Of a stretch of 38,056 nt of DNA, positions 4,494-8,236 are shown one piece after another. Position numbers and translations under genes: made by a program. The DNA comes from Spirochaetota bacterium (GTDB lineage: Bacteria; Spirochaetota; Leptospiria; Turneriellales; Turneriellaceae): positions 1 to 38,056 of the forward strand of contig JAFEGD010000194.1 in NCBI GenBank assembly GCA_018240245.1, given 5' to 3'. Under the pieces are notes generated by a model. The model saw only the letters and a list, made by a program, of their open reading frames with translations. It was not told the DNA's origin and did not search any database. Within the stretch, counting starts at the first letter, position 1. Every line of letters begins with the position of its first letter.

Positions 4494-5552
4494 TTAATTC
4501 GACACCGACCCTTGCGTCCCCCGGAAATAGGAGCCGACCAGAGTTTTTACGTTGCCAACGCCGTTGATTGTGAGCGTGCTTCCCAGAATTGCAGCTTCAG
4601 CCGTCGCATCGCGAGAATAGTGGTAATGGTAAGTCGCGGTTGAAAAATGCTTTGTGGTTGTCGTATGGCCATGCAAACGATCTAAAGTTGTGGCAGAACT
4701 TCCGGTCGTGTCGGTTACGCTATTGCCGGCGGCCGTGTTGTTATTATACGTCAGCGTTTGCGCTCCGGCACCGTCGTTCTGATCACATTTTTCGTCGTAA
4801 AGCGCATAGCCGTCGAGCATGATACCGATTAAAGCCCCCGAGGCCATACTGGGCGATACTTTTGTGACTTCTGAATGATGGTGGTAAATGTGGGCGTTAT
4901 CGGGGTGGCCGCCGTAGTTATCAAAAGTAAATGCCTGAGTAGCTAAGGTGTCGGGAGGAGCGGCGGCGTTATTAAAAATTGCCAATCCATTCGTCGTGAT
5001 ACCAATCGACGCTTGCCCGGCTTGGGTGCTGGTCAGATTGCCACTTGCCGCAGTGGGAGTAATCGGTATCTTATAAATAAAGGTCTGTGTTGCAATAACG
5101 TTTGTCCCTGCCCCATAGTTCGTATTATTATCGGGATTAGGGGTGCATGGTGTGGTGCTGCCGCCGTTACTACAAGTATGCGTCGATGTTAGCGCTTCGT
5201 ACAAAGTGCCTTTATTCGTGCAGCCTCCCACTTTTGTTTGGCTGCCACAATAATAGTAGCTATTATGGTTCGGCAAATTCACCGATTTAAACACATAATT
5301 TGCGCCGTCAGTGTAAATGATCTGACACTTAAAATTACTACTAATCCACGACGGCACCGAAGCGTCGATGACGGTATTCACATTCGTAACGCAGCCTGAA
5401 CCCGAATCGAGCGTCGCGCTGGTTACTGAAATTGTACCATTCGTCGTCGATGCCGTCGACGCCGAAGCGATGGGCGAACTGACGGTCGTAGTACAATAGA
5501 AACAGGCGAGACCTGCCATAAGAACGATTAACCCCAATTGTATTTTATGCAT
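4494..5552 (-). CDS. YHYH-domain lipoprotein, His-rich
   Basis: A 352-residue exported protein with a hydrophobic N-terminus ending in Cys (AGLAC, Cys17, or the nearby Cys20), then a low-complexity Thr/Ser/Asn-rich region with paired cysteines. The C-terminal half is the YHYH domain: HPDNAHIYHHH at residues 216-226, IMLDGYALYDE at about 245-254, LDRLHGH at 290-296 and YHYHY at 308-312. The biochemical role of YHYH proteins is not established to my knowledge. The clustered histidines and the SCO1 gene two positions downstream suggest metal binding (inference). First gene of its operon, divergent from the ECF sigma gene. Confidence 0.85.
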   Translation of the reverse strand: MHKIQLGLIVLMAGLACFYCTTTVSSPIASASTASTTNGTISVTSATLDSGSGCVTNVNTVIDASVPSWISSNFKCQIIYTDGANYVFKSVNLPNHNSYYYCGSQTKVGGCTNKGTLYEALTSTHTCSNGGSTTPCTPNPDNNTNYGAGTNVIATQTFIYKIPITPTAASGNLTSTQAGQASIGITTNGLAIFNNAAAPPDTLATQAFTFDNYGGHPDNAHIYHHHSEVTKVSPSMASGALIGIMLDGYALYDEKCDQNDGAGAQTLTYNNNTAAGNSVTDTTGSSATTLDRLHGHTTTTKHFSTATYHYHYSRDATAEAAILGSTLTINGVGNVKTLVGSYFRGTQGSVSN

Positions 5553-5584: not shown

Positions 5585-5671
5585 GAGAAGAGCATTGGGG
5601 GCCTATAACCGGACATTTTTTTTGATTGCAAAATTTATTGTGCCCGGTTTTTGCAACTGCGTGCTCTTCTC
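5585..5671. repeat. Nested inverted repeats in the YHYH/ECF divergent region
   Basis: An outer perfect 10-base inverted repeat (5585-5594 with 5662-5671, GAGAAGAGCA / TGCTCTTCTC) encloses an inner perfect 6-base one (5607-5612 with 5644-5649, AACCGG / CCGGTT). The spacers between outer and inner arms are exactly 12 bases on each side. It could be a dyad operator for divergent control or a folded leader RNA of the sigma gene. Confidence 0.55.
5603..5631 (-). promoter_or_regulatory. Candidate promoter of the YHYH operon
   Basis: On the minus strand TTGCAA (plus positions 5626-5631) and TTATAG (5603-5608) are 17 bases apart. Both boxes are imperfect. The -10 box touches the inner arm of the inverted repeat at 5585-5671, so it could be controlled from that repeat. 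Confidence 0.28.
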
Positions 5672-5716: not shown

Positions 5717-6259
5717 ATGGCATTAGTGTCCACAGGCCGCGAACTCAACGAATTATTGCGCACATTATACGAGACGGAGGGCCCAAAATTGTACGGATAC
5801 CTTGTTCGAAAAGCCGGTGCGACGCTCGCCGAAGATATCATGCAAGAAGCCTTCGCACGGCTCTGCACGCGCATGCGCAAAGCTGCAAGTATATCAAACG
5901 CCCGCGCGTACCTTTTTCAGATCGCCCGCCACCTGCTCTACCGTGAAACGGCAACATCAGCCAAATTCACTTCTGATATGCCTCTGGAGAACTTAGAGGC
6001 ACCGCAAGCCGCAAGTAACGCCGAAGAAAGCGATCTTTTGAGCACGCTTTCAGCAGCCGTGAAAACTCTCAACGCCCAAGAAAGCGAAATTTTTGAGATG
6101 CGTTGGAATCTTGATTTGACGCAAATAGAAATCGCCGCAGCACTCGGCAAAAGCGAGAGACAGATTCGCCGCGACTTAGAAAAAATCGTTACCAAGCTGC
6201 GCCATTTTTTTAAGGACAACGGTTGGGGCGACGCTGCGACAATTTCGGATAAATTATGA
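5717..6259 (+). CDS. ECF-type RNA polymerase sigma factor
   Basis: A 180-residue sigma-70 family protein of ECF size. Region 2 is at about residues 15-80 (AEDIMQEAFARLC, NARAYLFQIARHLLYR) and region 4 at about 110-165 (LNAQESEIFEMRW, LTQIEIAAALGKSERQIRRDL, a helix-turn-helix). It would direct RNA polymerase to a small envelope-related regulon. I chose the ATG at 5717; an in-frame TTG lies at 5708, and neither has a good SD. The gene overlaps the FecR-like gene by 4 bases (ATGA), the classic sigma/anti-sigma arrangement. A large inverted repeat lies just upstream. Confidence 0.88.
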   Translation: MALVSTGRELNELLRTLYETEGPKLYGYLVRKAGATLAEDIMQEAFARLCTRMRKAASISNARAYLFQIARHLLYRETATSAKFTSDMPLENLEAPQAASNAEESDLLSTLSAAVKTLNAQESEIFEMRWNLDLTQIEIAAALGKSERQIRRDLEKIVTKLRHFFKDNGWGDAATISDKL

Positions 6260-7155
6260 AGCGCGAAGAGCTCAAAGAAGAACTCTTCAAGTACCTCAGC
6301 GAATCTCCCTCGCAAGAACGGGAGAAAATCACGCGGTTGGCAGCAGGTGCAATGAATGCTACTGCTCTACCCGACTCACTCTGGCCCAAAATTCAAAAAG
6401 AAATCTTTGCAGCGCTATCGGTTGAACACGCCGGTTTCGGCACGAAGCTCAAGTCGTTTTTTTCACCGCCGCTGATGCTGGCGCTGGCACTCAGCGCCGT
6501 GGGTATTCTCGTCGGCGCATTTATTCTGCTGAGTCAGGGGGCAGCAACCCGCGAAGCGCCGTTGGTAGAGATCAGCGCGAATACGCCAAAACAAAAAGGC
6601 GATATTCTTATCGCAAAGGGCGTACGCATCGAAAATATCGGTGCGGGCAGCGTCGCGAGAAACTCGGGTGCAACCGATAAGATCGTTCTCCAGAGCGGCA
6701 CCTGGCAGGTAGCGTTGCAGCACAAAGAGCTGGTAAAACCTTTGCAGTTCATTTTTCCCGGCGGTATGCTCGAACCGATCGGTACCGCATTTACAGTGGC
6801 GATTGACCCAACGGGTACGCATGTGAATCTCACCGAGGGCAAGATTCGGCTTTTTGAAAAAGATGCCGCCGGCAAAAACTGGCAAGCTCGCGAAATCGGC
6901 GCGCCCTATAGCGGCACGCTAAAGAGCGCGCCGGTAGAAACCGAAATCCAGATCGCACCTGTTAGTAAAAAAAAGCAAGCACCATCATCAAAGTACGCTA
7001 ACTACATCGGAAAAAATATCACCGTCGAACTAAAAAACGGCGATCGGCTTTCGGGCCGTCTGCGTGCGGCAGAAAATGGCATGCTCGCTATTTCGGGTTC
7101 TTCGGGCAACTTGCGTATTCGCGAGCGCGACGTTGTGGGCATTAGCCGCAACTAG
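6256..7155 (+). CDS. FecR-domain anti-sigma factor with LSm-like C-terminal domain
   Basis: A 299-residue single-pass protein: cytoplasmic N-terminus (1-70), transmembrane helix at about 72-93, then a FecR-like beta region at about 110-200 (SGTWQVAL, EPIGTAFTVAI, GTHVNLTEGKIRLFE). The last 50 residues form a compact LSm/Sm-like motif (VELKNGDRLSGRL ... GNLRIRERDVVGI). It starts within the sigma stop codon, so it probably binds and inhibits that ECF factor and senses an envelope signal. Odd points: the extra LSm-like module, and that the following gene encodes nearly the same motif at its N-terminus. FecR role is inferred from domain order and context. Confidence 0.8.
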   Translation: MKREELKEELFKYLSESPSQEREKITRLAAGAMNATALPDSLWPKIQKEIFAALSVEHAGFGTKLKSFFSPPLMLALALSAVGILVGAFILLSQGAATREAPLVEISANTPKQKGDILIAKGVRIENIGAGSVARNSGATDKIVLQSGTWQVALQHKELVKPLQFIFPGGMLEPIGTAFTVAIDPTGTHVNLTEGKIRLFEKDAAGKNWQAREIGAPYSGTLKSAPVETEIQIAPVSKKKQAPSSKYANYIGKNITVELKNGDRLSGRLRAAENGMLAISGSSGNLRIRERDVVGISRN

Positions 7156-7156
7156 T

Positions 7157-8236
7157 ATGCAGATGTCGAGGGTTTTGCGACGCACTCTCAGTCTCGTTTC
7201 TGTCGTTTTGCTCTTCGGTCTCTGCCCGCTATTTGCGGCGGTAATCGTCCAAAAAAACGGCGACGTGATTAGCGGTCGCATTATTGAAGAAAAAGCCGAC
7301 AGCTATGTTTTCGCAAGCCCCTATGGCAAATTGCAAATCGCGAAAGCGAATATCGCAAAACTGATTCTCGACGAAAAAACCATCGCACTCAAAAACGTCA
7401 CGGTGGGCGATAAGACCGTCAAGGCACGGCTTATAAATCAGGACAAAAATACATCCGTCTATCTCACCGAAGATGGCCGCACGATTCGCAAGAGCGAAAC
7501 AGAAGCGCCGACGCCCGTTGCCGCACCTGCGGCGGTAGCTGCGCCGCGCGATAAGATCATCGCGGGGATTTCAGCCTATTATGGTTTTTCAACCTTTCAG
7601 CAAATGGGCACCGGGCAGACGGGTAGCATGCCGCCCTTCGAGCAGTCTTTTCACCCGAACACTTTTGGGTTTAATATTTCAGGGCACTATGTGTTGTCGC
7701 AATACTGGGGCGTCGGCCTCAATGCCTCGTTTAACAGATGGTCGGGAACAGTCGCACAATCTTCGCCGTCGCCCGTACCGGGGTTCGATGTCGCCACGAG
7801 CAACGAGTCGCTTTTTGGCGGCGCTTCGCTCGTCGTTTCTTTACTCGGCAACCTCGGCGCGACGGTACACGCGCACGATCTGCGTCTCGAAGTCGCCGGT
7901 GGGGCTGCGATCAACTCGGCCAATATTGATCTGGCATTCAAATCGCCGTTGAATGGGTTTCCTGCTGCGGCTTCGGCAACGGGGAGTAACCGCTCGGCCG
8001 CGCTCGACGCACAGTTGTATTATACCTATAGTTTTTCAGAATCGTTTCGGCTGCGTCTCGGCGCGGGTTATCACAGAATTTTTTACACCAATATCTACGA
8101 GCCGATTCTACAGAGCGCGTCGGCTATTCCCGGTGCGCCCGGCGGATTCAAAGGCGACTTCGAAGCCAATCTCGCGGCTACAGCGGTTAATCCGCAGATT
8201 ATTTCGATGTTGTTAGGCTTCGAAATCGGCTTTTAA
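7157..8236 (+). CDS. Signal-peptide protein: LSm-like domain plus predicted outer-membrane barrel
   Basis: From the ATG at 7157 (359 residues; another in-frame ATG at 7163) the protein has a signal peptide ending LFAA. An LSm-like segment follows (KNGDVISGRI ... GKLQIAKANIAKL, about residues 30-70), then a Pro/Ala linker (about 115-130) and a C-terminal 230 residues of alternating beta strands ending GFEIGF, typical of an outer-membrane barrel. It follows the anti-sigma stop by one base with no SD, so translation is probably coupled. Its N-terminal motif matches the C-terminus of the anti-sigma factor. Possible output or sensor of the sigma pathway. No named family recognised. Confidence 0.7.
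   Translation: MQMSRVLRRTLSLVSVVLLFGLCPLFAAVIVQKNGDVISGRIIEEKADSYVFASPYGKLQIAKANIAKLILDEKTIALKNVTVGDKTVKARLINQDKNTSVYLTEDGRTIRKSETEAPTPVAAPAAVAAPRDKIIAGISAYYGFSTFQQMGTGQTGSMPPFEQSFHPNTFGFNISGHYVLSQYWGVGLNASFNRWSGTVAQSSPSPVPGFDVATSNESLFGGASLVVSLLGNLGATVHAHDLRLEVAGGAAINSANIDLAFKSPLNGFPAAASATGSNRSAALDAQLYYTYSFSESFRLRLGAGYHRIFYTNIYEPILQSASAIPGAPGGFKGDFEANLAATAVNPQIISMLLGFEIGF

Follow-up and report, generated by a model that had tools for sequence, protein, structure and literature searches.

A cassette of three genes, encoding an ECF sigma factor, a FecR-like anti-sigma factor and an exported outer-membrane barrel protein, exists as a conserved unit in three families of one spirochaetal order. 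By profile comparison, a small module at the tail of the anti-sigma factor is homologous to one at the head of the barrel protein, and a single Sm-like fold is predicted for both. That the tail docks directly on the head and so controls the sigma factor, in a relay resembling FecI/FecR/FecA, is given slightly better than an even chance.

Organization of the locus

The window (the whole stretch of DNA that was analyzed) comprises positions 1 to 38,056 of contig JAFEGD010000194.1 from a Spirochaetota bacterium (Turneriellaceae; assembly GCA_018240245.1). The features are collected in Table 1. The sigma-factor and FecR genes overlap in an ATGA, and a single base lies between the stop of the FecR gene and the start of the barrel gene; both of the tight junctions described in the original prediction are thus present in the ORF coordinates. 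A functional tie to the next gene, lpxC (8312), was considered and dropped, since orthologous loci have different downstream genes.

An exported YHYH-domain protein is encoded divergently from the sigma factor (4494-5552, minus strand). Its gene takes the position that is held by a TPR-like gene in two relatives, so the locus has been rearranged among these genomes. The divergent gap contains an exact 10-base inverted repeat (GAGAAGAGCA / TGCTCTTCTC, window positions 5585-5594 and 5662-5671), which is possibly a regulator site. A scan for sigma-70 promoters gave no match better than chance.

Table 1. Coordinates of the cassette, its predicted parts and the related gene pair.
Feature	Residues	Coordinates	Strand	Details or basis
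ECF sigma factor	180 aa	5717..6259	+	ATG 5717, stop ending 6259
FecR-like anti-sigma factor	299 aa	6256..7155	+	ATG 6256, stop ending 7155
Parts of the FecR-like protein	cytoplasmic 1-70; single TM helix 71-94; periplasmic FecR domain ~117-222; C-terminal Sm module	6256..7155	+	
Sm/LSm-like module of the FecR tail	246-299	6991..7152	+	PF01423; AF2; Foldseek
Exported outer-membrane barrel with N-terminal module	359 aa, C-terminal F	7157..8236	+	ATG 7157, stop ending 8236
Sm-like module of the barrel head	27-73	7235..7375	+	AF2 strands, hhalign
Second small beta unit of the barrel protein	74-113	7376..7495	+	AF2 strands 78-83, 86-96, 99-104, 109-113
8-stranded outer-membrane barrel, fast-evolving	133-359	7553..8233	+	AF2, Foldseek
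SpoIIE-type phosphatase and inner-membrane TPR-like pair		L013 3659-6477; L014 3582-6707; more among L198-L237		

Sigma factor and anti-sigma factor

The first gene encodes an ordinary ECF sigma factor (TIGR02937, E = 1.9e-21; Pfam Sigma70_r2 and r4 were also matched), orthologues of which lie upstream of FecR in loci L013, L014 and L016. The FecR domain of the second gene product was matched weakly (PF04773, E = 0.011, below the cut-off). A search for related loci with the single FecR sequence returned no match; a search with a FecR alignment returned three named MAGs, and these were the source of the alignments for structure prediction. The AF2 alignments consisted of four sequences, and confidence was modest overall (mean pLDDT 62-66). 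The transmembrane helix was located in the AF2 model, the confidence of which is low at the helix. The best Foldseek matches of the FecR-like model were the periplasmic domain of PupR (6ovk, 1.5e-4) and the anti-sigma factor BDI_1681.

In the tail, FecR residues 247-274 matched the Pfam LSM family (PF01423) at E = 1.8e-4, with a score of 21.6 bits that falls just below the 23.4-bit cut-off. The last 54 residues were modeled as five strands with pLDDT values of 84-90, and Foldseek aligned them with Sm/Hfq folds at a probability of 1.00 (rmsd 1.2-1.7 for several). When the sequences of solved structures were searched with the module, the Sm matches were weak (best E = 0.006).

Barrel protein

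The third gene product has a signal peptide of ca. 26 residues (assigned by eye), and its sequence ends in EIGF. Eight barrel strands were placed by AF2 over residues 133-358, and Foldseek matched the barrel to OmpA (2e-6), Ail (1.3e-5) and OmpX (1.1e-4); the Pfam family OMP_b-brl (PF13505) was matched at 1.9e-5 (25.3 bits, cut-off 28.7). The protein accordingly has the signal peptide, the eight strands and the aromatic C-terminus of the OmpA/OmpX type. No TonB plug, STN or TonB-receptor domain was found in it by domain scans, in the AF2 model or by Foldseek, and the barrel without a TonB plug that had been proposed is what the model presents. Because an eight-stranded barrel can accommodate neither a plug nor a wide channel, “receptor” may be a misnomer for this protein; it may equally well be an anchor or a sensor of the state of the outer membrane.

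The N-terminus matches NF047433 (“LA_0442/LA_0875 N-terminal domain”) at 2.2e-7, with 30.5 bits against a 43-bit cut-off. The four-stranded unit that follows the head module in the model is possibly a second copy of it.

Relationship of the tail and head modules

The motifs from which a shared module had been proposed, KNGDRLSGRL in the FecR tail and KNGDVISGRI in the barrel head, were both found. Compared as a pair, the tail and head of the window gave a borderline result (BLASTP E = 0.03; 6% of shuffles scored equally well or better). Pairwise BLAST and shuffling were rejected as proof of homology because they are too weak, and profiles were used instead. Alignment of five FecR tails with six barrel heads in hhalign yielded a probability of 95.9% (E 6e-9), and an HMM of the FecR tail recovered five of the six barrel heads among 2,387 ORFs (E 1.8e-5 to 3.3e-4).

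In the AF2 models, the five strands of both modules are in identical, ungapped register at an offset of 227 residues (head strands 27-70), which puts both motifs in the same predicted five-stranded fold, as the prediction required. The Sm assignment is based on AF2 and Foldseek for the tail and on the strand register alone for the head. The claim that the anti-sigma factor ends, and the next exported protein begins, with the same module holds for the sharing (profiles, AF2) and needs correction for the position, in that the barrel module starts the mature protein, after the signal peptide. Also as proposed, one module is on a protein anchored in the inner membrane by the predicted helix, and the other is on a predicted outer-membrane barrel (AF2, Foldseek).

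Conservation of the cassette in the order

Eighteen genomes of the order were surveyed; many are fragmented into short contigs, and related genomes are non-independent. Eight genomes contain a match to the FecR-like protein, and six contain the barrel. In all six barrel-bearing genomes, which represent three families, the barrel gene directly follows the FecR gene; the predicted neighborhood, and with it the conserved cassette, was therefore upheld. In G001 and G013 the contig starts within the FecR gene, leaving the sigma factor out of view. The p-value for co-occurrence of FecR and barrel was 0.0015, with phylogeny left uncorrected. G002 and G003 have a related FecR protein, in which the tail module is weak or was not detected, and no barrel next door. 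Among 296 genomes of the phylum, FecR of the window type is strong only in the order.

The head module is, in sequence, the best-conserved part of the barrel protein: within the genus it is 79-98% identical, compared to 34-51% for the barrel. Between the window protein and that of family f4, the head is 53% and the barrel 19% identical; barrel identity to the other families is 13-19%. The FecR tail is 35-80% identical, and its contrast with the remainder of the protein is small.

Second, divergent sigma/FecR-tail/barrel cassettes were observed within the same genus at L045 3803-6346 (G014) and L200 1590-5457 (G013). The head modules of their barrel-like proteins are divergent and were recognized by eye only, and the L045 barrel apparently has three in tandem.

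Distribution of the module in Leptospirae

The module was found in 39 of 48 genomes of the class, with up to 10 copies each at E ≤ 0.01. At this abundance, the sharing of it is weaker evidence than that of a rare domain would be, and the neighborhood of module genes was tested instead. The count covered 25 sigma-linked FecR genes with the tail module for which the next gene downstream could be read. A module gene lay directly downstream in 15 of these 25 loci, a count in which genomes of one genus are non-independent; by genus, the figure was 6 of 10. In the control, i.e. FecR-tail genes with no recognized adjacent sigma factor, the downstream gene carried the module in 2 of 37 cases (Fisher p = 3e-6); this control is impure because some of its members are themselves partners of the LipL45 type, and with those omitted p was 8e-6.

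The partners were of three types. In the order they are OmpA/OmpX-type barrels with a head module. In family f5 they are membrane proteins with a head module (L159, L160, L163, L164 and L181; in L181 the module was identified by NCBIfam only, and a DUF5683 match is also present). The third type comprises LipL45-like lipoproteins that combine a FecR domain with a tail module; a single one, from L101, was compared with NCBIfam and matched LipL45 at 5e-47, under the cut-off of that family. The back halves of the partners differ, so the module is the element that they have in common. At the sigma-linked FecR-tail loci L102, L103 and L056, no module was detected in the downstream gene.

Runs of sigma factor, FecR-tail protein and then FecR-domain lipoprotein with a tail module occur at L101 5495-6724, L188 3953-5059 and similar loci, which suggests that LipL45-like lipoproteins can be part of sigma/anti-sigma operons. 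At L102 92-2655 and L103 3347-5937, an exported barrel-like protein with no detectable head module follows the FecR-tail protein.

TPR-like proteins with the same tail

In G012 and G014, the sigma factor is preceded by the gene for a TPR-like protein (“TPR” is a reading of the sequence by eye) that has a hydrophobic stretch at its N-terminus and ends in the same module; the sigma-FecR pair therefore lies between the TPR-like gene and the barrel in these genomes. A gene for a SpoIIE-type phosphatase comes before the TPR-like gene in both (HAMP was identified by Pfam in G014), and the G012 locus also includes a STAS gene. The genome of the window has a HAMP-SpoIIE (Pfam) and TPR-like locus elsewhere (G000:C94, L215 2553-6318).

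Class-wide, 45 of 46 TPR-like homologues are encoded directly after a SpoIIE-type or GGDEF enzyme (the latter takes the SpoIIE position in L099, L108 and L109), and for 15 of these homologues a recognized module gene lies immediately downstream. In these pairs the Sm tail module is often present, and a protein with the head module is often next. Exported proteins of ca. 250 residues downstream of other TPR-like genes might be barrels with divergent heads.

A wider reading is offered tentatively, as one that is more apt to fail than to stand: that a periplasmic docking code operates across Leptospirae, in which one Sm-fold module would wire envelope and outer-membrane proteins to at least three outputs, namely an ECF sigma factor via FecR, and a SpoIIE-type phosphatase and a diguanylate cyclase via the TPR-like protein. 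The module would be borne on the tails of inner-membrane signaling proteins and on the heads of their exported partners; outputs and partners would be swapped while the module pairing was kept.

Proposed mechanism and alternatives

In the proposed relay, the FecR-like protein would hold the sigma factor through its cytoplasmic part, and the Sm module that ends its periplasmic portion would dock on the N-terminal Sm module of the barrel protein across the periplasm. A ligand, or the state of the outer membrane or of assembly, would change the barrel and through it the docked FecR-like protein, which would then free or activate the sigma factor, probably via intramembrane proteolysis, the route taken by other FecR systems. 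Here we infer the module contact, the direction of signaling, the nature of the signal and the proteolysis. The findings that argue for the relay are the homologous modules with the same five predicted strands, the resemblance of the FecR model to PupR, the adjacency of the genes in every barrel-bearing genome of the order, the conservation of the head beyond that of the barrel, and the excess of module genes beside sigma-linked FecR-tail genes over the control. It is weakened by the commonness of the module in the class, by the genomes with a related FecR and no barrel, by loci L102, L103 and L056, at which the downstream gene has no detectable module, and by the few sequences and modest confidence of the models.

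The tail and head may instead bind the same third thing (peptidoglycan, a lipid, a small molecule or another module protein) and not each other, so that both proteins would sample one periplasmic signal or site. This is unlikely, although the class has many further periplasmic or exported proteins with the module, also in tandem, and binding of ligands or peptides is frequent among Sm and SH3-like folds: neighboring genes bear the module far above the ca. 1% background, a pattern more in keeping with specific partners than with a shared ligand.

Less probable still, the barrel gene would be a plain, sigma-controlled member of the operon and the module a common periplasmic linker through which no communication passes. 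Sigma factors often adjoin a target gene, and the abundance of the module agrees with this account; set against it, the differing types of protein encoded beside FecR-tail genes have only the module in common, and the TPR-like homologues nearly always follow a HAMP signaling enzyme and in about a third of cases directly precede a recognized module gene.

The least probable alternative is surveillance of outer-membrane assembly, in which the FecR tail would read the exposed head of a barrel stuck in the periplasm, making the barrel a reporter and not a receptor, and the sigma factor would adjust envelope genes; the OmpA/OmpX-type barrel does evolve fast beside a conserved head, as if only the head counted for signaling, but the partner in f5 is a membrane protein or lipoprotein and no barrel.

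If the Sm modules of the preferred relay do dock, the matched-fold strategy of FecR systems would have arisen anew with a different fold and no TonB, and the same code may also be used by phosphatases and cyclic-di-GMP enzymes.

Comparison with known systems

FecI/FecR/FecA is a known iron-sensing relay. The present cassette resembles it, and the PupR/PupB and FoxR/FoxA systems, in combining an ECF sigma factor, a single-pass anti-sigma factor of the FecR fold and an adjoining gene for an outer-membrane partner; the gene for the sigma factor is followed by that for the FecR-type protein, in which a single transmembrane segment links the cytoplasmic part to the periplasmic FecR domain. Also in common is a fold shared by the C-terminus of the anti-sigma factor and the periplasmic N-terminus of its partner (PMC7186176, PMC11637429): an STN-like subdomain of PupR forms part of the complex with the NTSD of PupB (PMC7186176), and the STND of FoxR is homologous to the signaling domain of FoxA and required for binding FoxA (PMC11637429). 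Unlike in those systems, the shared fold here is Sm-like and not STN, and the partner is a plug-less, 8-stranded barrel and not a TonB-dependent receptor. No STN-like subdomain was found at the FecR C-terminus by Foldseek or Pfam (LSM), which identified an Sm/Hfq-like fold there, i.e. at the position of the STN subdomain in PupR. Because these two defining features fail, the cassette was not filed as a member of the FecIRA group. It had been called possibly new, a label that calls for a narrower wording: sigma-linked FecR proteins with such a tail occur class-wide (NCBIfam already includes NF047528), and matched folds at the FecR C-terminus and receptor N-terminus are known for STN.

In Leptospira interrogans, a related spirochaete, LIC12757/LIC12756 likewise consist of an ECF sigma factor and a FecR-like single-pass regulator, a comparison made by description from the available portions of PMC12155086 and PMC13118517. 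The signal is thought to be sensed by the periplasmic region, and those portions name no outer-membrane partner; “LSm” and “barrel” do not appear in that of PMC12155086, nor “outer membrane” in that of PMC13118517. The conserved partner beside FecR-tail genes opens the question of the partner and signal of LIC12757/LIC12756 to direct test.

Sigma-linked FecR proteins of the class match NF047528 (LIMLP_03685 family anti-sigma factor) to its last positions, the site of the tail module. The window FecR was not matched to this family at E ≤ 1, and the barrel head weakly matches its C-terminus. The curated cut-off of 200 bits was reached by no class genome searched, so Leptospira itself is probably outside the genome set. 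NF047433 covers this N-terminal module as it occurs in exported proteins of Leptospira, and its likeness to the window barrel extends over the head only. With Sm/LSm/Hfq proteins, the tail has its predicted five-stranded fold in common; unlike them, the modules described here are predicted to be periplasmic and are fused to an anti-sigma factor or a barrel.
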